Made by a program: the position numbers and the translations under genes
Assembly (NCBI GenBank): GCA_016873095.1
Contig: VGYC01000041.1
Coordinates: 1-44,458, forward strand
Source: Planctomycetota bacterium
GTDB taxonomy: Bacteria; Planctomycetota; Planctomycetia; Gemmatales; Gemmataceae
Length of the DNA: 44,458 nucleotides
Direction: 5' to 3'
Shown: piece by piece, positions 9,699 through 29,544 of the stretch
Layout: each line of letters opens with the position of its first letter
How positions within the stretch are numbered: the stretch's first letter is position 1
The notes under the pieces: generated by a model
Databases searched by the model: none
The model's input: only the letters and a program-made list of their open reading frames with translations
What the model was told of the DNA's origin: nothing

Positions 9699-9777
9699 GC
9701 TGGTTTGCTGCAGTTGGTCGGCGGTTCCGCGCTCCGCGCGAATCCGCAAGCGGTCGAACTTACCGAGGAGTTTGTCG

Positions 9778-10746
9778 ATGCCGTCCGGCTTGCCGTTCGA
9801 GCGCGAGATCGACGAGATGGAAGAGTTGCTCGCCAAGATGGAAAGTGGCACCGGCAACGGCCAAGTCACGGCCAGCGAGGAAGTCCGTCGCATGCGCCGC
9901 GAACTGGCCAATCTTATCCGCAAGGTGTATGGCAATCTCCGCTCCTGGGACACGGTGCTCGTCTCGCGTCACAAGAACCGCCCGCAAACTCTCGACTACA
10001 TCGACATGATCTTCGACGATTTCGTCGAACTGCACGGTGACCGGGCCATTGGCGATGACCGGGCCATGCGTACGGGCTTCGCGCGGCTCGCGGATTTTCG
10101 CGTGATGCTGGTCGGCCACCAGAAGGGCCACACGCTCAAGGAACGCAACGAGTGCCTGTACGGCTGTGCCCATCCGGAGGGCTACCGCAAGGCACTGAAC
10201 AAAATGCGCCTGGCCGCCAAGTTTCGCATTCCGATCATTTGCCTGATCGACACCCCCGGAGCGTATCCGGGCATCGGTGCTGAGGAGCGCGGCCAGGCTC
10301 AACTCATCGCCACCAACCTCCTGGAGATGTCCCGACTGGCCACGCCGATCATCTGCGTCGTCATCGGGGAAGGGGGGAGCGGTGGCGCCCTGGGCATCGG
10401 TATCGGCGACAGGGTCGCAATGCTGGAGCATGCCTACTACTCAGTCATCAGCCCTGAGGGTTGCGCCGGCATCCTGTGGAAAGTCGCCACGGAAGAAACC
10501 AAGCCGATGGCCGCCGAAGCCCTGAAACTAACCGCCCGGGACCTATTTCGCCTGCGCGTCATCGACGCCATCATTCCCGAGCCTCTTGGCGGCGCTCATC
10601 GCGATCCGCGTGGCATGGGAAGCATCCTGAAAGACTACCTGCTCCGCTATCTGCGCGAGCTGCGTGACCTTTCCGTTGCAGAACTTCTGGACCAACGCTA
10701 CCAGAAGTTTCGGGCAATGGGCGTATTCGTGGAACAGGTGATTTAG
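9778..10746 (+). CDS. accA: Acetyl-CoA carboxylase carboxyltransferase subunit alpha
   Basis: The protein has 322 residues, close to the 319 of E. coli AccA. With AccD it transfers the carboxyl group from carboxybiotin to acetyl-CoA, giving malonyl-CoA for fatty-acid synthesis in the cytoplasm. Family hallmarks: the helical N-terminus (FEREIDEMEELLAKM), FDDFVELHGDR, GCAHPEGYRKALNKMRLA, CLIDTPGAYPG, and the oxyanion-hole stretch GEGGSGGALGIGIGDRV followed by YYSVISPEGCAGILWK. The ATG at 9778 has GAGGAG 8 bases upstream; a TTG two codons earlier is less likely. accD is not in the window, which is common because the two subunits are often unlinked. Confidence 0.97.
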   Translation: MPSGLPFEREIDEMEELLAKMESGTGNGQVTASEEVRRMRRELANLIRKVYGNLRSWDTVLVSRHKNRPQTLDYIDMIFDDFVELHGDRAIGDDRAMRTGFARLADFRVMLVGHQKGHTLKERNECLYGCAHPEGYRKALNKMRLAAKFRIPIICLIDTPGAYPGIGAEERGQAQLIATNLLEMSRLATPIICVVIGEGGSGGALGIGIGDRVAMLEHAYYSVISPEGCAGILWKVATEETKPMAAEALKLTARDLFRLRVIDAIIPEPLGGAHRDPRGMGSILKDYLLRYLRELRDLSVAELLDQRYQKFRAMGVFVEQVI

Positions 10747-17136: not shown

Positions 17137-17631
17137 ATGGCCGACAAGGTAAAACCGATCCCCGAGGGCAGCCAATCCGTCACCCCCTATCTGTCGATCC
17201 GGGGCGCAGTCGAAGCGGTCGAGTTCTACAAGAAGGCGTTTGGCGCCGTCGAGCAGATGCGGATGCCCTCTCCGGACGGCAAGACGCTGATGCACGCCGA
17301 ATTGAAGATCGGCGACTCGCAGCTCTATCTGGCCGACGAGTTCCCCGGCATGGAAGTATCCTCTCCGGCGGGCCTCAAGGGAACGACCGTATCGATCCAT
17401 CTTTACGTCGACGAAGTGGATGCCGTGTTCGCCAAGGCGGTCGCGGCCGGGGCCACGGTGAAGATGCCGCTCATGAATATGTTCTGGGGAGATCGCTTCG
17501 GCAAGCTGCTCGACCCGTTCGGCCATAGCTGGGCGCTGGCCCAGCACATCGAGGACGTGCCGCCGGAAGAAATGGACCGGAGGGCCGAGGAATTCCGCAA
17601 GCAGTGGGCCGAAGGCAAGGGCCACGCATGA
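17137..17631 (+). CDS. VOC (glyoxalase/PhnB-like) family protein
   Basis: The 164-residue protein has the vicinal-oxygen-chelate fold of the PhnB-like subgroup: TPYLSIRGAVEAVEFYKKAFGA, then MHAELKIGDSQLYLADE, then HLYVDEVDAVFAKAVAAGATV and WGDRFGKLLDPFGHSWALAQH. Family members are metal-dependent dioxygenases, isomerases or resistance proteins; the substrate cannot be read from sequence. The frame is open well upstream, but the ATG at 17137 has GAGG in the right place and starts the protein just before the domain. The stop overlaps the start of the next gene (ATGA), so the two are translationally coupled. Confidence 0.88.
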   Translation: MADKVKPIPEGSQSVTPYLSIRGAVEAVEFYKKAFGAVEQMRMPSPDGKTLMHAELKIGDSQLYLADEFPGMEVSSPAGLKGTTVSIHLYVDEVDAVFAKAVAAGATVKMPLMNMFWGDRFGKLLDPFGHSWALAQHIEDVPPEEMDRRAEEFRKQWAEGKGHA

Positions 17632-18902
17632 ACCCTCCTGCACCGAACACGCTCCGGGCCGGCATGGTCGGCCTGGGCATGATTTTCGACGACACCTATC
17701 GGCCGTTCTTCGAGCAGGCCCACGACCACTGGCTGCACCTTCCCGGCAACGTGGCGTATCAGGTCAGCCTGGCCGCCGTCGCCAGCCGTACCGGCAAGCG
17801 GGTCGAGGACTACCGGCGCAGATCCCCTGCCGATTTCGTCAGCTTCGCAGGCGATGACGCGGTTCGTGAATTGCTGGCGCATGGCGTTGATGCCGTCTGT
17901 GTGGCCACGCCGGACAACCGCCACTTCGACATTGCCCGCGCCGCTCTGAAAGCCGGCAAGCATGTTCTGATCGAAAAGCCTTCGGTACTGACGCTGCAAG
18001 AACTTGACGAGCTCACGGCTCTCGCGAGCGCCAACAGCGTCCTCGCCAAGGTCGTCTATCACAAGCTCGCTGATCCGGATCACAAGAAGCTGCGTACACA
18101 CGTAGTCGATGATGTGCTGCGGCATGTCAACAACGGCTACTGTTCGCTTCTGGAACCAAAGCAAATCAGCGGCAGTCAATTCGCCGAATGGATCAACGGC
18201 CGTAATCCGGGGACCTACGTCGCGGTTCACTACATCAAGCTCATCGATTTCTCCTTCGGGCCTGCCTGGCAGCTCAGGCGCATCCAGGCAACCGGCCAGC
18301 GCGGACTGGTCGGGCCGCCGACCGGAAACACCTGGGATTCCGTGCAACTGCAGATCATCTACGCTTACTCAGACGGTCGGGAGGCAGCCTTCGACATCCA
18401 TACCAGCTGGGTCACGCCGGACAACTTTCCCGGATACGTCGAACAAGAAGTGCAGTTCCGCTTTGACAACGGCGTCTGGAATGCCCACCAGCGCAAGCGC
18501 GGCGTAGAGGTCACGGTCGAGGGCAAGACTCCCGGCGACATGAAAATCACGCCCAACCATCATTACAACGGCACGTTCATCGAGCCGTGGGGCCAGCGCA
18601 GCCAGCGCGGTTATGGCGTCGAGATCATCCAGCGTTTTTTCGAGGAAGTGGCTCATGTCGAATTCGGTGGCCCCTCTGCCCTGCGGGGTTCCCGGCTGGA
18701 GGAAATGCGCGGCCTGGCCTACAATGACGTGGCCGCCGATCGCAATACCGTCGCCATCGTGCAAGCCATGGAAGCGCTGCTGCAACAACACGCTGCCGGC
18801 CGCCCCGGTTGCCTGTGCGAGGTGAATGGCTCCGACGGCGGCTTGATATTGCGTGTTCCCGGAAAGGAAAAACCACTTACCCTCTATCCTGGGCATGTTT
18901 GA
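17628..18902 (+). CDS. Gfo/Idh/MocA family oxidoreductase
   Basis: The 424-residue protein has an N-terminal Rossmann domain with the NAD(P) motif in AGMVGLGMIF (about 11-20) and the family EKP motif in HVLIEKPSVLT (about residue 117). The C-terminal alpha/beta domain follows. Members oxidise or reduce sugars, inositols and related compounds using NAD(P). It overlaps the VOC gene by ATGA. The YHKLADPDHKKLR stretch has the region where the family places its catalytic Lys and His, but I cannot assign the exact residue. Substrate unknown. No signal peptide, so cytoplasmic. Confidence 0.9.
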   Translation: MNPPAPNTLRAGMVGLGMIFDDTYRPFFEQAHDHWLHLPGNVAYQVSLAAVASRTGKRVEDYRRRSPADFVSFAGDDAVRELLAHGVDAVCVATPDNRHFDIARAALKAGKHVLIEKPSVLTLQELDELTALASANSVLAKVVYHKLADPDHKKLRTHVVDDVLRHVNNGYCSLLEPKQISGSQFAEWINGRNPGTYVAVHYIKLIDFSFGPAWQLRRIQATGQRGLVGPPTGNTWDSVQLQIIYAYSDGREAAFDIHTSWVTPDNFPGYVEQEVQFRFDNGVWNAHQRKRGVEVTVEGKTPGDMKITPNHHYNGTFIEPWGQRSQRGYGVEIIQRFFEEVAHVEFGGPSALRGSRLEEMRGLAYNDVAADRNTVAIVQAMEALLQQHAAGRPGCLCEVNGSDGGLILRVPGKEKPLTLYPGHV

Positions 18903-18941
18903 CTTTGCAGGCGTTGAGAATACCCAGCCAAGGAATCGCAG

Positions 18942-20375
18942 ATGACGACACCGGTATTGCATCCACACGAGAATTCATCCAACGCGGCGCGCGATTTGGT
19001 TGCCCGCGTTGAGCCGCGCAGCTTGCGAACCTTCACGCCGACACAGGCCGTGCTCGCCAGGAGTGCCGGCATATATCACTGGACCCCCGAAGGCAGGCGG
19101 CTCTACGATTTCAGCTCCGGCGTCCTCGTCTCCAACCTGGGGCACAATCCATCACCGTGGATGAATCGCTTCGCCAAGTACATGGGCTGGGCCGACATCC
19201 CCTGGCGCGAAGCTGCGGGCGCCAACGGCCAGACACCCGGCGGCTACTTCCCGGCCGTGACGCTCACCGCCTACAACGCCGTGACGGAGGTCGAGACCAG
19301 CGCCAGCCGGCGCCTCCTCGATTTCCTCATGAAGCAGACCGGCGGCCGCAGACTCGAACAGGTCTTCTGGGCAGCGTCCGGGTCCGAGGCGATCCAGAAG
19401 GCGCTGTGGGCATCCCTGGCGCGCGACCGTGATCGAGACATGATCCTGGCGACGCGTTACGGCTTCCACGGCAAGAAAGGGCTGGCCGGCGCGGTCACCG
19501 GCTGCGAGACGGATCGCGACCGCGACCCGCGTGTCCGCTTCATCAGTTTCCCGATGACGGAATGTGCCGACGTCAGCATGCGCGATCGACCAATAGATCT
19601 GGCCCCATTCCGCAAGGAACTCGACGCGCTCAAGAAAGAGTTCGGCGCGCGCCTTGGCACGCTGATCACCGAGCCGTATCTCGGCGGCGGCGGGTCCTAT
19701 CACCCGCAAAAACAGTATCTGCACCTCCTCCAGGATTTCTGCCGTACCAACGACATCGTCTTCATCCTCGACGAGGTGCAATCGAACTTCGGACGCACTG
19801 GCGAGCTGTTCGCGTTCACGACGTACGGCATCGAGCCGGACATCGCCGTGCTCGGCAAGGGTCTGGGCAATGGTGTGCCGGTGGCCGCTGCCGTCGGCCG
19901 AGCCGACATATTCGCCAGCCTCGATTACGGCGAAGGGTCCGACACCTGGAGCGCCAACCCGCTGTGCTGCGCCGCCGTGCTGGCCACGCTCGACGAGTTC
20001 GAGGCGCGTGACGTGATGGGCCCCTGCCGGAAGTCGTCTGCCATCATCGAGACTGGCCTGGTCAAGCTGAAGGAATTGCCGTTCGTGGCCAATGTGCGCG
20101 GCGAGAAGGGCGGCATGGTCTGGGGCCTGGAGATGGCCGACCACGCGGGCCGGTCCGCCGCCGACTGGGCCAACGCTGCGGTCCTCGCTTGCTACCGCGG
20201 CGAAGGCGACGACGGCATCCATCTGCTGGGCCCGCTGGCAAAAAAGGTTGTACGCATCGCGCCGCCGCTCGTGATCAGCGAAGCCGAGGCGCGGCAGGCG
20301 ATGGAACTGATGCAGCGGGCGCTGGGATCGCTGGCCTGCGAGCCCAGGCAAGTGCTGGCAGGCGTCGGGGCGTAA
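18942..20375 (+). CDS. Class-III PLP-dependent aminotransferase
   Basis: The 477-residue protein has the fold-type I class-III pattern: YDFSSGVLVSNLGHN near the N-terminus, FWAASGSEAIQKAL, the cofactor-binding FILDEVQSNFGRTGE (D277), and the Schiff-base lysine in VLGKGLGNGVPVAAA (K306). The group includes GABA, ornithine and acetylornithine aminotransferases; I cannot choose among them. AAGGAA precedes the ATG. It starts 39 bases after the Gfo/Idh/MocA gene and 73 bases before the metal permease, all on one strand, so it could be part of either transcript. Confidence 0.92.
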   Translation: MTTPVLHPHENSSNAARDLVARVEPRSLRTFTPTQAVLARSAGIYHWTPEGRRLYDFSSGVLVSNLGHNPSPWMNRFAKYMGWADIPWREAAGANGQTPGGYFPAVTLTAYNAVTEVETSASRRLLDFLMKQTGGRRLEQVFWAASGSEAIQKALWASLARDRDRDMILATRYGFHGKKGLAGAVTGCETDRDRDPRVRFISFPMTECADVSMRDRPIDLAPFRKELDALKKEFGARLGTLITEPYLGGGGSYHPQKQYLHLLQDFCRTNDIVFILDEVQSNFGRTGELFAFTTYGIEPDIAVLGKGLGNGVPVAAAVGRADIFASLDYGEGSDTWSANPLCCAAVLATLDEFEARDVMGPCRKSSAIIETGLVKLKELPFVANVRGEKGGMVWGLEMADHAGRSAADWANAAVLACYRGEGDDGIHLLGPLAKKVVRIAPPLVISEAEARQAMELMQRALGSLACEPRQVLAGVGA

Positions 20376-20448: not shown

Positions 20449-21414
20449 ATGGGCGACTGGTTGCAATCGCTAACCGGCGGCGTGGATTCGGGCATCCACT
20501 GGTTCACAACCTTGTGGCCGGCCGGCACTTTTCTGTCGTGGCATTTCAACGTTACCAGCATGGTTGCCATCATCTTGGTGGCGCTGATCTGCGGCATGGT
20601 CGGTTCCCTCGTGGTTGGCAACCGCATGGCGTTTTTCAGCGACGCGCTGGCGCATTGTGCCTTTGCCGGAGTTGCGCTGGGGCTCTTGATTGCCTTGTTC
20701 AACCGAATTCCGGTCCGTGACTTCACGGCCTGGATTCAATTGATCATGGTTGTGTTTGGCATCGCCATCGGGTTGGGCATCGCCTGGGTCCGCGACAAGA
20801 CATCACTGGCCAACGACACCGTGATCGGGGTTTTCTTCGCCGGAGCCATCGGCCTGGGAGCGCTGGTCATGAAAGGAGTCCGGACCGGTTTTCCGCTCGA
20901 GAGTTTCCTTTTTGGTGGGCCACTCGAGGCCAGCCCGGCGGACTTGCTGAAGCTCGGCGCCTTGTTGCTCGTGACCCTGGCCGTGCTCGGCTGGAACTAC
21001 AACTCGCTGGTGTTCACGAGCTTCAACGCGAGCCTGGCCCGGTCGCGGCAGGTTCCCATTCGCTTCAGCAACTACCTGTTCATCGCCCTGCTGGGCCTGA
21101 TCGTCAATCTGTGCCTGTCCATCGTCGGCGCCCTGCTCATCAATGCGCTGCTGATCGTGCCGGCGGCGACGGCGGCCAACGTCAGCCGAAACATGCGACA
21201 GCAATTCTGGCTTTCCGTGGTTCTGTGTCTGGCGTTCGGGATCGTTGGCCACATCCTCAGCTGGGAGATACAGATTCCCGACCCCACTTCGCACGAGCCG
21301 ATCCAGTTCGGCATCAGCGGCATCATTGTCGTCCTCAGCGTCGTCGCGTTCTTCATCTCGATGGCCGTGGGCCCGATGCTGCGCCGCCGGGCCAGCGCGC
21401 CCCCATTGCCATGA
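20449..21414 (+). CDS. ABC-3 family metal ABC transporter permease (ZnuB/MntB-like)
   Basis: The 321-residue polytopic protein shows the ABC-3 family pattern: GSLVVGNRMAFFSDALAHCAFAGVALGLL early, DTVIGVFFAGAIGLGALVM in the middle, and LSIVGALLINALLIVPAATAANVSRNMRQQFWLS late. These permeases import zinc, manganese or iron with an ATPase and a metal-binding protein. Neither partner lies beside it; the upstream neighbour is an aminotransferase. The ATG at 20449 has GAGGTG upstream, and the longer open frame from 20389 is rejected. Its place directly before a UPF0718 permease and two His-rich membrane proteins supports a transition-metal role. Confidence 0.9.
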   Translation: MGDWLQSLTGGVDSGIHWFTTLWPAGTFLSWHFNVTSMVAIILVALICGMVGSLVVGNRMAFFSDALAHCAFAGVALGLLIALFNRIPVRDFTAWIQLIMVVFGIAIGLGIAWVRDKTSLANDTVIGVFFAGAIGLGALVMKGVRTGFPLESFLFGGPLEASPADLLKLGALLLVTLAVLGWNYNSLVFTSFNASLARSRQVPIRFSNYLFIALLGLIVNLCLSIVGALLINALLIVPAATAANVSRNMRQQFWLSVVLCLAFGIVGHILSWEIQIPDPTSHEPIQFGISGIIVVLSVVAFFISMAVGPMLRRRASAPPLP

Positions 21415-21581
21415 TTCCGGTGATGCCGGTATTACAGTGTTGCAACTTTCTGCCGCACGGTCGATTGCGCCTTGTTTCCGTCTCGTGATGATCGGAAAAT
21501 GACTCCGCCGGGCGAACCTTTGTGGGAACGCCCTTCCTAGCAGTGGAGTTGCTTCCTTTTCCAGGCCGAGCGGGACATTTC

Positions 21582-22610
21582 GTGGACCAGTACATCATCA
21601 ATTTCACGAGCATCGTCTACGAGGCTTTACCCTTCATCGTGCTGGGCGTCATCCTCGCCGGGCTTCTGGAGGAATTCGTCCCGCAGCAATTCATCACGCG
21701 CGTGACGCCGAGCAACCGGGCCATGGCGATCGCCCTGGGCTGTCTGCTAGGCCTCGTTTTCCCGATGTGCGAGTGCGGCATCATCCCCGTGATGAAACGG
21801 CTCTTGCGGAAGGGACTGCCGCTCAGCCTGTGCGTCTCGTACATGCTGGCGGGGCCGATCATCAACATCGTCGTCATCATGAGCACTTATGTGGCATTCA
21901 AGAACCCGATCTTCGGCGGCTCCGTTGCCGTCGTGGCTCTGCGCGTCGGCCTAGGCTTCGTGGTCGCGTACAACGTCGGCTTGATCGTGGACCGCCTGTG
22001 GCGGCGGCACGGGACCGACTTGCTGGCGCCGTCCGTCGCCAAGGGACTCGATCAGCCGAGCAACGACGAAGTCTCCGGCCGGCCGCGGACGTTGATGGAC
22101 CGGTTGAACAACATCACCGCGACGGCGCTGGGCGACTTCATTGACATTCTGGCGTTTCTCATCATCGGGGCGTTGCTGGCCGCCGGCGGACGAGCCATGC
22201 TGGACAGCATGCGGCCGGCGCCGAATCGGCCCAGCAGCCTCGAGCTGGAATTGAAGAAGCACCCTGCCCTGGCGATCCTGATGATGATGGCCCTGGCAGT
22301 TCTCTTGTGCCTGTGCAGCGAGGCCGACGCCTTTGTGGCTGCCAATTTCCCCGATGCCTGGGCGCCTGCCGCCAAGCTGGCCTTCCTTGTTCTCGGGCCC
22401 ATGATGGACCTCAAGTTGTTCTTCATGTACACGCGCGTCTTCCGGCAGAAGCTCATCTGGACGATCATTGTCGCGGTTGTCATCCAGGTCTTCGCATACT
22501 GCCTGATTCTCAATTACCTGGAAGTGCCGGTCACTCAGCACGGCCAGGCTCTGCAAGAAAACTGGGACTGGATTATGGGTTTGGCTTCCTCGGGGCAGAA
22601 GGTAAAATAA
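21582..22610 (+). CDS. UPF0718 (DUF318, YraQ/ArsP-type) permease
   Basis: About 342 residues with eight or so transmembrane helices. The family hallmark is clear: PMCECGIIPVMKRLLRKGLPLSLCVSYMLAGPIIN, with the CxCxxxP motif, and a second half ending in FLVLGPMMDLKLFFMY. Members include proposed arsenical and metal permeases. A relative is encoded next to a DUF1980 protein in Bacillus (ycgR-ycgQ), the same pairing as here. The start is uncertain: GTG at 21582 gives a start just before the first helix, GTG at 21522 adds 20 residues, and GTG at 21543 is a third option; none has a strong ribosome-binding site. Confidence 0.88.
   Translation: MDQYIINFTSIVYEALPFIVLGVILAGLLEEFVPQQFITRVTPSNRAMAIALGCLLGLVFPMCECGIIPVMKRLLRKGLPLSLCVSYMLAGPIINIVVIMSTYVAFKNPIFGGSVAVVALRVGLGFVVAYNVGLIVDRLWRRHGTDLLAPSVAKGLDQPSNDEVSGRPRTLMDRLNNITATALGDFIDILAFLIIGALLAAGGRAMLDSMRPAPNRPSSLELELKKHPALAILMMMALAVLLCLCSEADAFVAANFPDAWAPAAKLAFLVLGPMMDLKLFFMYTRVFRQKLIWTIIVAVVIQVFAYCLILNYLEVPVTQHGQALQENWDWIMGLASSGQKVK
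22581..22608 (+). promoter_or_regulatory. Leaderless-type promoter of the first DUF1980 gene
   Basis: TTGGCT (22581-22586), 16 bases, then TAAAAT (22603-22608). Exactly six bases separate the -10 from the ATG at 22615, so transcription should start at or next to the start codon. The element overlaps the end of the upstream permease gene. Confidence 0.5.
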
Positions 22611-22614
22611 GAAC

Positions 22615-23472
22615 ATGGACCACCATCACGCTCATGTGCACGATGCCTATTACCTCGACCAGATTTGCCTGATCGTGGTGTCCGCGGCATTCGGCGGTAT
22701 CTGCCTGTCGCTGTGCACCTGGCAAGGCGCGATGCTGCACATGATGCTGGCCCCGTTCTTGCACGGATACGTCCTGGCCGGCGGCATTCTGCTGGTCATC
22801 GCCGCCCTCATCCGTGCCGCGATACTCTGGCACGAGGCGGCCAGGGATTCGGGACACGAAGACGACCATGCCGATTGTGAACACCAGTGCGGACACGCAC
22901 ATCACGATCACGATTGGGCGCCGTGGCGCTATGTCATCGTGCTTGTGCCGATCATTCTCTTTCTTCTCGGCCTGCCGAACAAGCTGCCGGAATTGCGTGG
23001 CGACGCCGTCGCAGTGGATTTGACGCAAGAGGCAATGAGCTACGCCAGCCTGGTGGCCGCGAGCCAGCGGCCATCATCCGCCGCTTTGGCACTTGGCGCA
23101 CTTTTCGCGGAGCCTGCCGTTGACATTGCACCGACCATCCTTGTTTCCAGCTTGGCGAAAGCCAACCTGGGCACGCGCGAGCAATGGCTCGGTGAACTCG
23201 TCCGGGTCGAAGGCCGTTTCGACCCAACCACGAATCCGCGGCAGTTCGAGATCGAGCGCTATGTTCGTGCGTGCTGCATTGCAGACGTTCAACGAGTGAG
23301 TGCCCTGGTAGTTTGCCGGGAGCCTGCTCCGGCGTTCCCCGTCAAGCAATGGCTGGCGGTGACGGGCCGAGTCAACTTTCGAAACTCGGCGCACGGTGTC
23401 GTGACCGTGCTCGAGGTTGCAAACATGAAAGCCATCGTCCCGGGGCCTCCACAAAGCCCACTCGCGTATTAA
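22615..23472 (+). CDS. DUF1980 (TIGR03943-like) membrane protein with His-rich linker
   Basis: The protein has 285 residues. The N-terminus has a His cluster (DHHHAHVHD), then two helices (about 16-34 and 47-70), a His/Asp/Cys-rich linker (81-99), a third helix (about 103-120), and an outer domain. That domain carries RACCIAD (C220-C221), the double-Cys stretch typical of this family. DUF1980 proteins are encoded beside UPF0718 permeases in several bacteria, and a role in metal handling has been proposed. It lies four bases after the permease stop and has its own TAAAAT hexamer. The next gene is a paralogue with the same layout and shared stretches ([24 protein letters not shown]). Confidence 0.82.
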   Translation: MDHHHAHVHDAYYLDQICLIVVSAAFGGICLSLCTWQGAMLHMMLAPFLHGYVLAGGILLVIAALIRAAILWHEAARDSGHEDDHADCEHQCGHAHHDHDWAPWRYVIVLVPIILFLLGLPNKLPELRGDAVAVDLTQEAMSYASLVAASQRPSSAALALGALFAEPAVDIAPTILVSSLAKANLGTREQWLGELVRVEGRFDPTTNPRQFEIERYVRACCIADVQRVSALVVCREPAPAFPVKQWLAVTGRVNFRNSAHGVVTVLEVANMKAIVPGPPQSPLAY

Positions 23473-23478
23473 GCCGCA

Positions 23479-23484
23479 TAGAAT
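23479..23484 (+). promoter_or_regulatory. Leaderless-type -10 element of the second DUF1980 gene
   Basis: TAGAAT followed by six bases and ATG (23491). The surrounding sequence, GCATAGAATACC, is identical to that before the P450 start at 38873. No good -35 is visible, and there is no ribosome-binding site. Confidence 0.45.
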
Positions 23485-23490
23485 ACCATC

Positions 23491-24522
23491 ATGGCACACC
23501 ATCATCACCACGAAGACAGCGACACCTATTATCTGGATCAGCTGTGCCTGGTCGCGCTCTCAGCCGCGTTCGGCGGCGTATGCCTGTCGATGTACACCTG
23601 GCAGAGGCCGATGCTGAACATGATGCTGGCTGCACAGTTCCACGTCTTTGTCCTCGCCAGCGGCATTCTACTCACCGCACTGGCATTGATCCGGGCGGTG
23701 GTCTTGTGGAAAGCCGTGGGCATGAAGCCGCAGCCAGCACACGTACACAATCATGAGCACGCTCAGGATCACATACATGACCACGCACATGATCACGCGC
23801 ACGGCGAGTGCAGCCACAGTCACGTGCACAGTCACGAGCACACGCATGCCCACGCACACGGTCACGAGCATGTGCAGACCCTTCCGCACACTCATGCGCA
23901 TGCCCACGATCACGATCACGATCATGGCCACGATCATGATCACGACCACGACTGGGCGCCGTGGCGCTATGTCATCTTGCTTGTGCCAATCATCCTCTTT
24001 TTGCTGGGGCTGCCGAACAAGCCGCCGGAGATTCGGGCGGAAGCGGCGCAACTTGATATGTCGCAGGAGGGGGCGAACACGACGAGTTTGGTGGGGGCGC
24101 TGACCAATCCGGTCTCCAGCCTGGCCATGCTCGCCGGCGTGTATGCCGATTCGGCAGAAGGTCCAGCGCTGACGGTGCGTTTCAGCTTCCTTGAAGAGAT
24201 CGCCTCCTCGCCCGAGAGCCGGGCCGAATGGGCAGGCAAACCGGTGCGGATCATAGGCCAGTACATGCCGCTGCGCGGCTCGGACCGGCAGTTCACGCTT
24301 GTTCGCCTCAAGATCCGCTGCTGTGCCGCCGATGTGATCCCGCTCAAGGTACCGATGATTTGCAAGGAGAAGCTGCCAGCGCTGCCAGATCTGCAATGGG
24401 CCAAGGTCACGGGCCGCATCGAGTTTCGCCAGGTGGACAATACCATGACCACGGTTCTCATCGTCCCCAGCGCGGCCGCCATCTCGGCCACTCCGCCAGA
24501 ATCCAATCCCTACGAGCAATGA
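23491..24522 (+). CDS. DUF1980-like membrane protein with extreme poly-histidine linker
   Basis: The 343-residue paralogue of the preceding gene product has the same order: N-terminal HHHHH cluster, two helices (about 16-36 and 50-72), His-rich linker, third helix (about 157-174) and outer domain with IRCCAAD (C277-C278). The linker, residues 84-154, holds 31 His in 71 positions, mostly alternating with Asp, Ala, Ser or Glu. Its bulk explains the extra length over the first copy. Such tracts bind zinc, nickel, copper or cobalt. With two helices before it, the linker and the C-terminal domain lie on opposite sides of the membrane. A metal buffer or donor for the neighbouring permease is my inference. 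Confidence 0.82.
23905..23951 (+). repeat. CACGAT-type hexanucleotide repeat inside the His-rich linker
   Basis: Near-perfect six-base units (CACGAT, with CATGGC, CATGAT and CACGAC variants) encode alternating His-Asp. The tract is likely to vary in length by slippage, which would change the His count without breaking the frame. Confidence 0.6.
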
Positions 24523-24538
24523 TCCCGGGAGAATTGCC

Positions 24539-25732
24539 ATGAAGTCGTCGATGAGCTGGCTGCTTGCTGCCACAATCATTGTGGTCCTGTCGGTAGGCGG
24601 CCCCCTGCCCTCCCCCGCCCTTGCTTGCCCCTTCTGTTCGCAGGAGAAAGGGCCAACGCTGCTGGGCGATTTCAACTCCGCCCAGATGGTGCTGGTCGGA
24701 TCATTTGCCAACGCCAGGCTGGGCGGCAAGGGCGCCATCGAGGACGGCACCACCGATCTTGTGCTCGACAAGGTGCTGAAATCACACGACATCCTCAAGA
24801 CCAAGGCAACAACGGTGAACGGCAAGCAGGTCGTCACCCTGCCCCGGTACCTGCCTCAGGCGAAGAACCAGTTCCTCATCTTCTGCGATGTCTACAAGGG
24901 CGCCATCGACCCGTACCGCGGCGTCGAACTGCAATCGGCCAAGGCGATGGTGGACTACTTGCAAGGCGCCATAAAGGTCAAGGACCGGCCCGCCGGCGAG
25001 CGGCTCGCCTTTTGCTTCAACTATCTGCAGAGCCCCGATTTCGAGGTGGCGATGGACGCCTACCGCGAATACGCCAAGGCCGACTACAAGGACTACATGG
25101 AGGTCGCCAAGAAGTATCCCGCCGAAACGATTGCCAAGTGGCTGCAAGACCCAAAGACGCCCCCGTTCCGCTACGGCCTGTATGCCTCGCTCCTGGGTCA
25201 CTGCGGAACCACGGAGCATGCCAAGCTGCTGCGCAAGATGATCGACGACCCGGAGAAACGTAAAGGCTCCGGCATCGACGGCATGCTGGCCGCCTACGTC
25301 ATGCTCCAGCCGGCGGAGGCCTACGGTTACCTTTGCGACGTGCTCAAGGACTCCAGCCAGGAGTTCCTGATGCGTTACGCCGCTCTGCGGACCATTCGCT
25401 TCCTGTGGGACCAGCGGCCAGACCTGGTGGCCAAGAAGGACCTGGTAGCCGCTACCGCGCTGATCCTCGACCACGGCGACATGGCCGACTTCGCCATCGA
25501 GGACCTGCGCAAATGGCAGCGCTGGGAGCAGACTGACCGCATTCTCGACCTGTTTGGCAAGAAGAACTACGACATCGGCGTGGTCAAGCGCGCCATCCTT
25601 CGTTTTGCGCTCCGCTGCCCAAATCCCCGTGCCGCGAGTTTTGTGCAAGACCAGCGCCGCCGCGACGCCGAATGGGTTCGCGATACCGAGGAATTGCTAA
25701 GGCTGGAGTATCCTGACGAACCCAAAAAGTAG
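24539..25732 (+). CDS. Exported protein with N-terminal CPFC, paralogue A
   Basis: The 397-residue protein has a signal peptide (1-29) ending in ALA. The predicted mature protein begins with C30-P-F-C33, a CxxC motif at its very end. A beta-rich region follows (MVLVGSFANARL, TTDLVLDKVLKS, FLIFCDVYKG), and then a helical part that may form HEAT-like repeats. The protein at 25865 is homologous over its whole length (compare DFAIEDLRKWQRWEQT with DVAVEDLRRWQMWDLT). I do not recognise the family. A ribosome-binding site GGGAG precedes the ATG. It follows the His-rich membrane protein by 16 bases on the same strand, so shared metal or redox work outside the membrane is plausible but unproven. Confidence 0.82.
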   Translation: MKSSMSWLLAATIIVVLSVGGPLPSPALACPFCSQEKGPTLLGDFNSAQMVLVGSFANARLGGKGAIEDGTTDLVLDKVLKSHDILKTKATTVNGKQVVTLPRYLPQAKNQFLIFCDVYKGAIDPYRGVELQSAKAMVDYLQGAIKVKDRPAGERLAFCFNYLQSPDFEVAMDAYREYAKADYKDYMEVAKKYPAETIAKWLQDPKTPPFRYGLYASLLGHCGTTEHAKLLRKMIDDPEKRKGSGIDGMLAAYVMLQPAEAYGYLCDVLKDSSQEFLMRYAALRTIRFLWDQRPDLVAKKDLVAATALILDHGDMADFAIEDLRKWQRWEQTDRILDLFGKKNYDIGVVKRAILRFALRCPNPRAASFVQDQRRRDAEWVRDTEELLRLEYPDEPKK

Positions 25733-25749
25733 CTCATCGGTCAAGCGCA

Positions 25750-25767
25750 TTTCGCGTTCGCGCGAAA
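25750..25767 (+). repeat. TTTCGCG hairpin between the two CxxC paralogues
   Basis: TTTCGCG (25750-25756), a TTCG loop, then CGCGAAA (25761-25767): a perfect seven-pair stem, 18 bases after a stop codon. It has no T run, so it is a possible but untypical terminator. It belongs to the same family as the elements at 5578 and 29558. Confidence 0.55.
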
Positions 25768-25801
25768 CGTGAGCAGGCCCCCTGCCCTGCCCCATCTCGA
25801 A

Positions 25802-25829
25802 TTGCTGAATCGTGGTGAGAGTGTAGAAT
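25802..25829 (+). promoter_or_regulatory. Promoter of paralogue B
   Basis: TTGCTG (25802-25807), 16 bases, TAGAAT (25824-25829). A leader of about 28 bases with a perfect AGGAGG leads to the ATG at 25865, unlike the leaderless genes nearby. Confidence 0.5.
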
Positions 25830-25864
25830 AGGAGGCGATTTGCGCGCCTGGCAGGAGGTAATTA

Positions 25865-27013
25865 ATGACCCGGTTTCTCGGTCTTCTCACGCTTGCCATG
25901 CTTGTTTGCCTCCCCCCCTGCCCTGCCCCGGCATGCTCGCTGTGCAACGGCAGCGCCCTGCAGATGAAACCGCTGCGCGAGCACTGGGAACGGGCCAAGG
26001 TGGTGATCTACGGCACGCTGGCCAATCCGCGCTTCATCAACAGCCAGGCCGGCATCGGCATCACCGACGTGCATATCCTGCAAGTCCTGAAGTCGGATCC
26101 GCTCCTCGGCAACGCCAAGACGGTGGAACTGAGCCGCTATCTGCCGGTGCTCGATCCCAAGAAGCCGCCGCGGCAGCTCATCTTCTGTGACATCGTCAAG
26201 GACAAGATCGACCCTTATTTCGGCAAGGAGGCGCGCTCCCCTGCCCTGCTTGATTACTTCAAAGGCATCCAGGCCCTGGCGGGCAAGGATCGGCTGGAAG
26301 CGCTCAAGTTCTTCTTTGAGTATCTCGACAACGAGGATCCGGTGCTGGCCGACGACGCGTTGCTGGAGTTCCTCCGCTCGACGGACGCGGAAGTGGGGCA
26401 GGTGGCCAAGCACTTGCCGGTGAACAAGCTGCGCCGCTGGTTGCAAAACCCGGACACAACGGCGGACCGGCTGAGCCTGTATGCCTTTCTCTTGAGCGCG
26501 GCCGGCGACCCGGGCGATGCCCGTTTGCTGCGTGGCCTGATTGACAAAGCCGACAAGCGCAGCAAGGCGGCGCTCGACGGGTTGCTTGCCGGCTATATCC
26601 AGCTCAACCCGCGCGACGGCTGGGAACTGGCCATCAACATGCTGCACGATGAGCGTACGCCTCTTCTGGATCGGTTTGCCATCCTGCGGACGTTTCGCTT
26701 CTATTACGGCTGGAAGCCGGCCGAGAGCAAGGCGCAGGTGCTCCGCGCACTGGGCGGGCTCATCGAGACTCCGCTTCTGGACGTCGCTGTTGAAGATCTC
26801 CGCCGCTGGCAGATGTGGGACCTGACGCCAAAGATCCTCGCCCAGTTCGGCAAGCCAGGCAACGCCTCGCAGATCGTCCGCCGTACCATCGTGCGTTATG
26901 CGCTGTGCAGCCCGCAACCCGAATGCCGCAACTTCCTCGACCGCGTCCGCCGTAGCGACGGCGAGATGGTCCGCGAGATCGAAGAGGGACTGGAATTGGA
27001 ACGCAAGCACTGA
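25865..27013 (+). CDS. Exported protein with N-terminal CSLC, paralogue B
   Basis: The 382-residue paralogue of the preceding product has a signal peptide (1-23) ending in APA, so the mature protein should begin C24-S-L-C27. The order of the beta-rich part (VVIYGTLANPRF, LIFCDIVKDKIDPYFG) and helical part matches paralogue A. It has its own promoter and a strong AGGAGG ribosome-binding site, so it can be expressed apart from paralogue A. I know of no described function. The shared layout argues for two related periplasmic or surface parts of one process. Confidence 0.82.
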   Translation: MTRFLGLLTLAMLVCLPPCPAPACSLCNGSALQMKPLREHWERAKVVIYGTLANPRFINSQAGIGITDVHILQVLKSDPLLGNAKTVELSRYLPVLDPKKPPRQLIFCDIVKDKIDPYFGKEARSPALLDYFKGIQALAGKDRLEALKFFFEYLDNEDPVLADDALLEFLRSTDAEVGQVAKHLPVNKLRRWLQNPDTTADRLSLYAFLLSAAGDPGDARLLRGLIDKADKRSKAALDGLLAGYIQLNPRDGWELAINMLHDERTPLLDRFAILRTFRFYYGWKPAESKAQVLRALGGLIETPLLDVAVEDLRRWQMWDLTPKILAQFGKPGNASQIVRRTIVRYALCSPQPECRNFLDRVRRSDGEMVREIEEGLELERKH

Positions 27014-27951: not shown

Positions 27952-28059
27952 GGTTCCCCCTCGTGCGTGACGCACGAATCCACTTTACCGGAATACCACC
28001 AAGAAATAAACTCTCTGTTGCATCGAATTACAAACCTGGCCAGAAGAACTGAGAAGCCA

Positions 28060-29544
28060 ATGCAACTTACTTCACACATCGGCGATCTTCATGAAGTCGA
28101 AGCCGACTGGCTGATTCTGCCCATCTGGGAAGACGGCGCCCCTGGCAAGGCCGCCGCGGAACTTGACGTCAAGCTCGGCGGCGTCATCGCGCGGCTACGC
28201 GAGGCCGGAGACATCAAGGGCAAGGCGAAAGAGCTGACGCCGTTGCTCGATCCGAAAGGGATCGCGGCCGGCCGGGTCATGGTCGTCGGTCTGGGCAAGC
28301 GGGCCGGCATCGATCGCAATATCTTGCACGATGCGGCGGCGGCCGCGGCCCGCGCCATCACCAGCAAAGCACGCGACCGGCTCGGATTCGCGCTGCCGGA
28401 GGACGTATCGAACCTGAATTGGGGCGACGTCGCGCTCGCGTGCGGTGTCGGCCTGATGCAGGGCTGCGACGGGCCCGGGCTGCGCAAGAGCGAGAAGGAT
28501 CGCTTTCCGCCGAAGGAGATCGTCCTGATCGCGCCGGCGTCCGCCCCAGCCGAAGAGATAAAGCAGGCAACGGAGAGGGCGGGCATCGAGGCCGCCGCCG
28601 TCAGCCTGGCCCGCGAGCTGGTCAACACCCCGCCATGCGACCTGTTTCCAGAAACCTTTGCCGCGCGCGCCGACAAGGTCGCCCAGGAGACCGGCCTGCA
28701 GTGCACGATACTCGATCTGCGGCAACTCGAGACCGAACGCATGGGGGCCTTGCTGGCTGTCGCCCGCGGCTCGGCCCGGGCGCCGCGGCTGGTCGTTCTT
28801 CGACACAGCAAGGGAACCGGCAAGACGCTCGGCCTGGTCGGCAAAGGTGTGACTTTCGATAGCGGCGGGCTGTCGCTCAAGACCAACGACCAGATGGTGG
28901 ACATGAAGTGCGACATGGCGGGCGCTGCCGCCGTGCTCGGCGCCATGCAGGCCATCGCCCGAATGGCGCTGCCGGTCAATGTGATCGGCGTGATGGCCCT
29001 GGTCGAGAACATGCCCGGCGGCAAGGCCATGAAGCTGGGAGACGTCTTGCACGCCCGCAATGGCAAGACCATCGAGGTGCTCAACACCGACGCCGAGGGC
29101 CGGCTCATCCTTGCCGACGCGCTGGCCTACGCCATCGATCACAAGGCCGATCACCTGGTCGATCTGGCAACGTTGACCGGCGCGTGCATCGTCGCGCTGG
29201 GCATGGAGGTCGCCGGCCTGATGAGCAACAACGATGAGTGGAAGGGCCGTGTGGAAACGGCGGCGCGGACGGCGGGAGAACGACTCTGGCCGTTGCCGAT
29301 GTTTCCGCTCTATGGCGAGATGATCAAGAGCGACGTGGCCGACATCAAGAACACGGGCGGCTCGCGCTGGGCCGGCGCCATCAGCGCCGCCAAGTTCCTG
29401 GAGGAATTTGTCGCCGGCAAGCCGTGGGTGCATCTCGACATCGCGGGCCCCGCCTGGGCTGAAAAGGAGAACGCCGTCCGCGCCTCCGGCGGCACCGGCG
29501 CCTTTGTCCGCACGCTGGTCCAGCTGGCCAGACAATACGCCTGA
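28060..29544 (+). CDS. pepA: Leucyl aminopeptidase (M17 family)
   Basis: The 494-residue protein has the family's N-terminal macro-like domain and the C-terminal catalytic domain. Motifs: VGKGVTFDSGGLSLK (metal-binding Lys and Asp), the downstream DMKCDMAGAAAVLG, and the M17 signature NTDAEGRLILADAL. The enzyme removes N-terminal residues from peptides, usually as a hexamer with two metal ions per subunit, in the cytoplasm. The frame is open from 27967, but the ATG at 28060 begins the normal domain start. It is divergent from the small gene at 27951. Confidence 0.95.
   Translation: MQLTSHIGDLHEVEADWLILPIWEDGAPGKAAAELDVKLGGVIARLREAGDIKGKAKELTPLLDPKGIAAGRVMVVGLGKRAGIDRNILHDAAAAAARAITSKARDRLGFALPEDVSNLNWGDVALACGVGLMQGCDGPGLRKSEKDRFPPKEIVLIAPASAPAEEIKQATERAGIEAAAVSLARELVNTPPCDLFPETFAARADKVAQETGLQCTILDLRQLETERMGALLAVARGSARAPRLVVLRHSKGTGKTLGLVGKGVTFDSGGLSLKTNDQMVDMKCDMAGAAAVLGAMQAIARMALPVNVIGVMALVENMPGGKAMKLGDVLHARNGKTIEVLNTDAEGRLILADALAYAIDHKADHLVDLATLTGACIVALGMEVAGLMSNNDEWKGRVETAARTAGERLWPLPMFPLYGEMIKSDVADIKNTGGSRWAGAISAAKFLEEFVAGKPWVHLDIAGPAWAEKENAVRASGGTGAFVRTLVQLARQYA

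Follow-up and report, generated by a model that had tools for sequence, protein, structure and literature searches.

The stretch of DNA analysed here (the window; 44,458 nucleotides, contig C41 in our numbering) comes from the 8.36-Mb genome (G000) of a Gemmatales-type planctomycete. On its forward strand it carries six consecutive genes, encoding an ATP-binding cassette (ABC) permease of the ABC-3 family, a UPF0718 permease, two DUF1980-like membrane proteins and two exported paralogues, CX1 and CX2, that have a Cys-x-x-Cys motif at the predicted mature N-terminus (the CxxC family). We propose, with a probability of about 60%, that this locus encodes one half, that of the inner membrane and envelope, of a system for acquiring and handling zinc. 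An original prediction, made from the DNA letters alone, had placed the six genes together in transition-metal traffic. That interpretation is partly supported: it was right in direction, and our data narrow it to zinc, but it was drawn too tightly, as the locus is two modules that often travel together rather than one system. Zinc is favoured by a split ZnuA-ZnuC operon, a shared promoter palindrome and a link to DUF3299 and the Zrg operons. From this evidence we infer zinc as the best-supported metal, together with the direction of transport and the ligand of the CxxC proteins.

In the mechanism that we envisage, a ZnuA lipoprotein and a ZnuC-like ATPase encoded elsewhere in the genome would join the ZnuB-type permease of the window for zinc import, a partnership suggested by the conserved gene complement. 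The UPF0718 and DUF1980-like proteins, which include a His-rich loop and, akin to DUF3299/ZrgE, a double-Cys domain, would probably carry or buffer zinc beside ZnuB. CX1 and CX2 are predicted to be exported and to expose their N-terminal Cys-x-x-Cys on a TIMP-like oligonucleotide/oligosaccharide-binding (OB) domain; within the envelope they would probably serve as accessories to whichever zinc ABC transporter a lineage uses, binding zinc itself or clients that bear it.

An orphan ZnuB-type permease and its likely partners

As had been described, all six open reading frames (ORFs) were found on one strand, with gaps of 107, 4, 18, 16 and 132 bp between them. The first (20449..21414, +) encodes a ZnuB-type ABC-3 metal importer permease that matches PF00950 at 154.5 bits, well above the Pfam cut-off of 20.1. 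Its nearest NCBIfam models are the zinc permeases AztB (121.7 bits against a cut-off of 280) and ZnuB (95.2 against 284), both scores lying below the cut-off. An ABC-3 permease requires an ATPase and a solute-binding protein (SBP), and BLAST searches with both types of partner found neither in the window. Three ZnuA-type proteins are encoded in the genome; those on contigs C12 and C149 stand beside ABC-3 permeases of their own, and the third, on contig C37, stands beside an ATPase and without a permease. The arrangement is therefore not that of a ZnuABC operon, as SBP and ATPase are on C37 and the permease is in the window. The C37 SBP contains a histidine run in a His-rich loop and scores highest against zinc SBP models, below their equivalog cut-offs, and the best model for the C37 ATPase is ZnuC, likewise below its cut-off.

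We compared these loci across 41 genomes, our own included; the relatives carrying the CxxC family are mostly Gemmataceae, Gemmatales and other planctomycete records. ZnuA matches occur in 40 of the 41, and 20 relatives' loci were picked from the stronger ones. An ATPase lies beside the C37-type SBP in 18 of these 20 and in our own genome (19/21), and an ABC-3 permease beside it in none of the 21, while the two control operons of our own genome do show one. In G001, assembled as a single contig of 6.6 Mb, the sole ABC-3 match and the sole ZnuA match are 1.8 Mb apart, and three further genomes (G010, G016 and G024) have exactly one match of each kind (E up to 0.001). The split thus extends across genera, and in the genomes with one match of each kind these two parts are the only candidate partners. 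Gene content and neighbourhood thus make it likely that the ABC-3 gene of the window is an orphan ZnuB, with the C37 ZnuA and ZnuC-like ATPase as its partners. In a large planctomycete group, the permease gene of a probable zinc importer has become detached from the genes of its likely SBP and ATPase. No account of a split Znu system in planctomycetes was found in the literature searched, which was mostly open-access.

A palindrome with the symmetrised consensus GGTATTACAAAGTAATACC recurs upstream of znuA-znuC. Because 13 ZnuA promoters served to train the model, hits there are not independent; independent support comes from sites scoring 12.5 or more at 7 of 8 untrained ZnuA loci (the miss is L102) and from two strong copies at the separate C12 znu operon. 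Among 53 CX1 promoters, nine carry a site scoring at least 11.7 (each with p no higher than 0.013 on shuffling), and eight of these sites lie 116–171 bp before the start. Eight non-redundant CX1 sites compare with 0.9 expected from background (P 4e-6), a conservative value because the mask was too narrow and the background retains ZnuA-promoter sites. Palindrome sites were also found at the UPF0718-DUF1980 operon of G034 (12.6) and at the operon of G012 that combines the aminotransferase, ZnuB and a fusion protein described below (12.9). The only match in the window is weak, with one perfect half-site (21428..21446, +); located 94 bp upstream of where UPF0718 starts, it scores 7.8 (p 0.045 on shuffling) and may be due to chance. 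Across our own genome there are 32 sites with the palindrome pattern versus 10 for a reversed control; among the better ones, those on C380 and C301 look unrelated to metal. On C380 (L134:2353-2715), repeated palindromes lie just 3' of a transketolase gene in a sequence that is present twice, and no metal gene was seen on this short contig.

For the known Zur/Fur box, a consensus of the TGATAATNATTATCA type matched once at p 0.01 among the 21 ZnuA promoters, the rest being unconvincing. Two Fur-family genes are present in our own genome. Near the C12 znu operon lies a gene (L135:13711-14130, - strand) whose product has a ribbon-helix-helix-like N-terminus, as judged by eye, and Cys/His-rich motifs. 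It occurs once each in 31 of the 41 genomes and matches no Pfam family above cut-off. Three palindrome copies precede it in our own genome, where it lies 1.5 kb from a gene for a CobW-family GTPase; an upstream palindrome at p 0.01 was found in only 3 of the 31 loci, our own included, one locus being too short to score. We regard this protein as a candidate metal regulator and considered it as a possible reader of the palindrome.

UPF0718 and DUF1980-like proteins as a probable membrane unit

The second gene (21522..22610, +) encodes a UPF0718/ArsP_1 permease of the SO_0444/YcgR type with the CECGIIP motif, and it too lies well above the family threshold (PF03773, 174.6 bits against a cut-off of 32.3). 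Against the SO_0444 Cu/Zn efflux equivalog it scores 71 bits, short of the cut-off of 300. Strong UPF0718 matches, defined as 130 bits or more, are present in 30 of the 41 genomes, our own included. ZnuB and UPF0718 are adjacent in 27 of these 30, among them G005, whose locus is cut by contig ends; the exceptions are G016, G034 and G039.

The next two genes were described as encoding two His-rich DUF1980 proteins. Both ORFs are there, copy a at 22615..23472 (+) and copy b at 23491..24522 (+), as YcgQ-like membrane proteins; what did not hold is the His-rich character of both, since copy a has a short His linker ahead of its double-Cys C-terminal domain and the long His-rich linker is found only in copy b. 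The family label is also a remote one for both copies, because the profile scores are borderline or below cut-off: for PF21537 (cut-off 25.9) copy a reaches 26.8, just above, and copy b 25.3, below; for TIGR03943 (cut-off 88.8) they reach 68.5 and 74.4; and for PF09323 (cut-off 25.9) copy a scores 16.6 and copy b is not listed. A PF09323 search of our own genome gave no matches at E up to 0.001. The double Cys of the C-terminal domain is nonetheless invariant in the alignment (18/18). Nor do the data support the duplication as a typical feature: among the loci compared, two DUF1980-like ORFs occur only in the window and in its own duplicate, L001, and the 57 other loci with such an ORF have one each. 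The tandem copy thus looks specific to our own genome; at most loci, the relatives' genes score better against copy b than against copy a.

A DUF1980-like protein was found in 29 of the 41 genomes, of which 27 have it next to UPF0718 or joined with it in one chain (in G011 and G017 the two are on separate contigs; G018, cut by contig ends, was scored adjacent). In four genomes (G010, G012, whose contig is L056, and those of L059 and L062) the parts form a nested single chain, in which the DUF1980 N-terminal part and a His-rich stretch are followed by UPF0718 and then by the double-Cys DUF1980 C-terminal domain. The fusions are good evidence for one complex, and together with the adjacency they support the view that the two proteins make up a single membrane unit.

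The exported CxxC family and its neighbourhoods

CX1 (24539..25732, +) and CX2 (25865..27013, +) share 37% identity, fall in the same alignment and are predicted to begin, once mature, with CPFC and CSLC, respectively. The proposal that they belong to an unrecognised family stands, as neither has a Pfam or NCBIfam match at E up to 1. The family is present in 34 of the 41 genomes, often as a tandem pair; the contig scan for it used one peptide pattern and undercounts. Our recount comprised 70 members from named loci and the window. The N-terminal motif proved to be a family trait, with Cys-x-x-Cys near the mature N-terminus in 65 members; of the five without it, one (L088) has Cys-x-Cys. Immediately ahead of the first Cys, 54 of the 65 have Ala (otherwise Ser in 4, Pro in 3, Phe in 2, Trp in 1 and His in 1), and position -3 is Ala, Val, Ser or Thr in 56. 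Ala at -1 with a small residue at -3 is the signal peptidase I pattern. With Ala so frequent at -1 and Leu at -3 in only 4 of 65, we judged a lipoprotein reading of the CxxC proteins unlikely. The 11 members without Ala at -1 suggest that cleavage may not fall exactly before the first Cys in every member. In G023 the second CxxC gene (L007:2720-3846) is fragmented by stop codons and the first is intact. One CxxC gene (L096) lies on a contig of a metagenome-assembled genome labelled Bacteroidales, likely a misbinned planctomycete contig.

AlphaFold2 modelled mature CX1 from a 43-row alignment with a mean predicted local distance difference test score (pLDDT) of 95.7; the single-sequence fold was poor (pLDDT 51). 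The model has a five-stranded barrel (about residues 21–102) followed by helical repeats. Foldseek matched the repeats to HEAT-type structures and the barrel to the NTR domains of meteorin (7tlw, 7tlh) and PCOLCE1 (1uap) and to agrin NtA (1jc7, 3i70, 1jb3, 1pxu); the titles of 1jc7 and 1jb3 relate agrin NtA to N-TIMP-1. For the barrel, modelled within whole CX1, these hits have E 0.013–0.065, probability 1.00 and template modelling (TM) scores by target of 0.50–0.61. At E up to 0.5, the HEAT_2 profile (PF13646) was matched by 11 of the 43 members, the best of them at E 2.1e-06, CX1 itself not being among them. The CxxC barrel is accordingly NTR/TIMP-like by predicted fold and unproven as a member of that family. 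In the literature searched, mostly open-access, we found no description of a bacterial NTR-HEAT family.

The six genes recur across many genera, which goes beyond chance. On either side of them (9772–10746, 17604–20375 and 27967–29544 of the window) lie accA and genes for a Gfo/Idh oxidoreductase, a class III aminotransferase and an M17 aminopeptidase, and the block accA-Gfo/Idh-aminotransferase-ZnuB-UPF0718-DUF1980-CX1-CX2-pepA is preserved whole in many Gemmatales genomes. Zavarzinella formosa (L081) carries the cluster from accA through pepA. Several Gemmatales genomes have an HD-domain gene that separates DUF1980 from CX1 (L047:8071-8655, L038:10428-10985, L034:10530-11171 and others); the single copy put to Pfam is HD_4, and it resembles a MESH1-type small alarmone hydrolase. 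In two genomes, CbiM-type cobalt/nickel permease genes lie 3' of DUF1980 or CX1 (L050:9795-10394, L037:11586-12692).

The idea of one obligate six-gene system was rejected on two grounds: of the 29 genomes encoding CX1 as well as DUF1980, only 18 have them in one cluster, and in two other planctomycete families, f4 and f6, CX is found without DUF1980. A survey of 244 genomes of the phylum found 27 with matches to the CxxC family: our own, 23 from other families of the same class, and three from elsewhere whose matches cover the helical part only. No DUF1980 match in any of these 23 covers the C-terminal domain; in f4 and f6, matches to the DUF1980 profile are confined to the N-terminal and His-rich stretch. 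CxxC genes lacking UPF0718 and DUF1980 neighbours in most genomes had been named as grounds for abandoning the original prediction, and these counts bear that out in part, given the 18 clustered genomes. The metal link survives in another form, through DUF3299-type neighbours at distant loci. We took 15 such loci, 11 from f4 and f6 and four from a third family, f5. At 10 of the 11 f4 and f6 loci, CX has one or two small, conserved DUF3299-type proteins as neighbours, recognised at the tenth by BLAST alone. In the small neighbours of nine loci, two each, the aligned double Cys is invariant (18/18); of the four searched against Pfam, three exceed the DUF3299 cut-off. In 5 of the 11, CX also has an ABC ATPase and an FtsX/MacB-type permease nearby. 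The FtsX/MacB and DUF3299 labels were Pfam-tested in two loci, where ATPase, MacB-type permease and DUF3299 beside CX were all confirmed; at the remaining loci they were assigned through BLAST or alignment.

The two kinds of double-Cys partner may themselves be related. A single pairwise hhalign comparison (not a database search) of the DUF1980-like C-terminal domain with the DUF3299 proteins gave a probability of 91.5 and E 8.8e-07, so the domain looks like a remote DUF3299 relative. The DUF3299 profile also matches the solved structure 4hsp (E 1.8e-06), which we take to be PA4066. Together with the neighbourhoods, this likeness indicates that a CxxC protein often accompanies a double-Cys partner in both settings and, in many, also a zinc-type ABC permease. 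DUF3299 is ZrgE of the Vibrio ZrgABCDE system, and the zrgE transcript rises about 76-fold at low zinc alongside its ABC genes (PMC9817125); the Zrg operon is reported to matter for low-zinc growth of V. cholerae, zrgE alone having no effect (PMC9820375). The corresponding Pseudomonas operon is zinc-repressed and is argued to be an exporter (PMC11481552). We searched eight window proteins against Pfam, and no member of the Zrg set (MacB-type permease, ATPase, DUF3299 and DUF2796) was among them; DUF2796 was not sought genome-wide.

Alternative readings and comparison with known systems

Several observations weigh against the proposal that the locus serves zinc acquisition. None of the six window genes has a strong palindrome upstream, and 44 of the 53 CX1 promoters score below 11.7. 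Several profile scores fall under curated cut-offs. The NTR reading depends on Foldseek E values, no NTR/TIMP Pfam family was found in the 43 members at E up to 0.5, and no NTR domain appears among the 50 VIA matches listed, all of which are helical-repeat. CX1 is apart from DUF1980 in 11 of 29 genomes, and the four f5 loci show CX without a DUF1980 or DUF3299 neighbour. Since the conserved block extends to accA, Gfo/Idh, the aminotransferase and pepA, adjacency need not imply common function, and inherited gene order explains part of the linkage between CX and the permeases. Taken to its end, this last point would make the CxxC pair a mere neighbour of the permeases, perhaps a general envelope scaffold or protease-inhibitor-like protein. 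That view draws on the whole-block conservation, on the 11 genomes and on the many planctomycetes that have CX without DUF1980, yet it is somewhat unlikely given the DUF3299-type genes beside CX in 10 of 11 distant loci and the znuA palindrome at nine CX1 promoters. The main alternative is that UPF0718 and DUF1980 might form a zinc/copper exporter balancing the importer, in which case the locus would be a homeostasis switch and CX would shield envelope proteins from excess metal. Relatives of the ArsP type export organoarsenicals, which counts in its favour. So does SO_0444 of Shewanella, the closest UPF0718 model to have been studied: this distant family member, at 71 bits, is needed for growth under zinc or copper stress and is a proposed efflux protein (PMC3219624). 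The export argument made for the Pseudomonas DUF3299 operon (PMC11481552) points the same way. However, the SO_0444 cut-off is far from reached, the genes sit with an importer permease, CX1 shares the znuA promoter element in some genomes, and the double-Cys domain resembles the DUF3299 protein of a zinc-starvation operon; we therefore consider an exporter somewhat unlikely.

The metal could also be manganese, cobalt or nickel. ABC-3 permeases move Mn and Fe as well, CbiM-type genes follow the block in two genomes, and a second palindrome-bearing SBP, on C12, is equally close to MntC and AztC. Against this, the top-scoring models are zinc models for the C37 SBP, which contains a His-rich loop, and ZnuC for the neighbouring ATPase (all below cut-offs), and the DUF3299/Zrg operons are zinc-regulated, which makes another metal very unlikely. 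Within the zinc acquisition reading itself, a bolder form is conceivable and, in our estimate, quite unlikely: the CxxC proteins would be a new class of envelope zinc chaperone, and UPF0718 nested in DUF1980 a zinc conduit beside ZnuB. The free N-terminal Cys-x-x-Cys of the TIMP-like domain would then hold zinc, with the HEAT repeats as a scaffold, and the CxxC proteins would dock on double-Cys OB partners (DUF1980-C or DUF3299), serving two unrelated zinc ABC systems across planctomycete lineages.

This variant of an already familiar kind of zinc transport offers a realistic prospect of learning what UPF0718-DUF1980 and the CxxC proteins do. The CxxC family, previously nameless, gains a predicted fold, two separate zinc-type contexts and a testable role in zinc supply. 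It is comparable to the NTR/TIMP-like domains of meteorin, PCOLCE1 and agrin NtA in its barrel, predicted to have five strands, and in the Cys that probably stands at the mature N-terminus. It differs from them in its Cys-x-x-Cys, where TIMPs carry Cys-x-Cys, in its fusion to HEAT repeats, in its bacterial origin and in the lack of a sequence-level match. Its resemblance to ZrgABCDE of Vibrio and PA4063-PA4066 of Pseudomonas lies in DUF3299, sometimes with an ABC ATPase and a MacB-like permease, beside CxxC genes in other planctomycete families. The window, in contrast, has an ABC-3 rather than a MacB-type permease and, among its eight searched proteins, no DUF2796 (ZrgA). With ZnuABC and AztABC, which pair an ABC-3 permease with a cluster A-I SBP, the host genome shares the permease, a ZnuC-like ATPase and a ZnuA-type SBP that carries a His-rich loop; here the permease gene is detached from the other two and stably tied to UPF0718-DUF1980.

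That last pair is adjacent also in YcgR-YcgQ of Bacillus, which we take to belong to the UPF0718 and DUF1980 families, and in ScfA-ScfB of Streptococcus. ScfA-ScfB matters for streptococcal fitness in mice, its function being called unknown (PMC5584981). In planctomycetes, UPF0718-DUF1980 gains a concrete zinc hypothesis from its bond with an orphan zinc-type permease, the nested fusions and the homology bridge to ZrgE. What sets the planctomycete version apart from both pairs is the long His-rich linker in most relatives, the zinc-type permease upstream and the nested fusions in four genomes.

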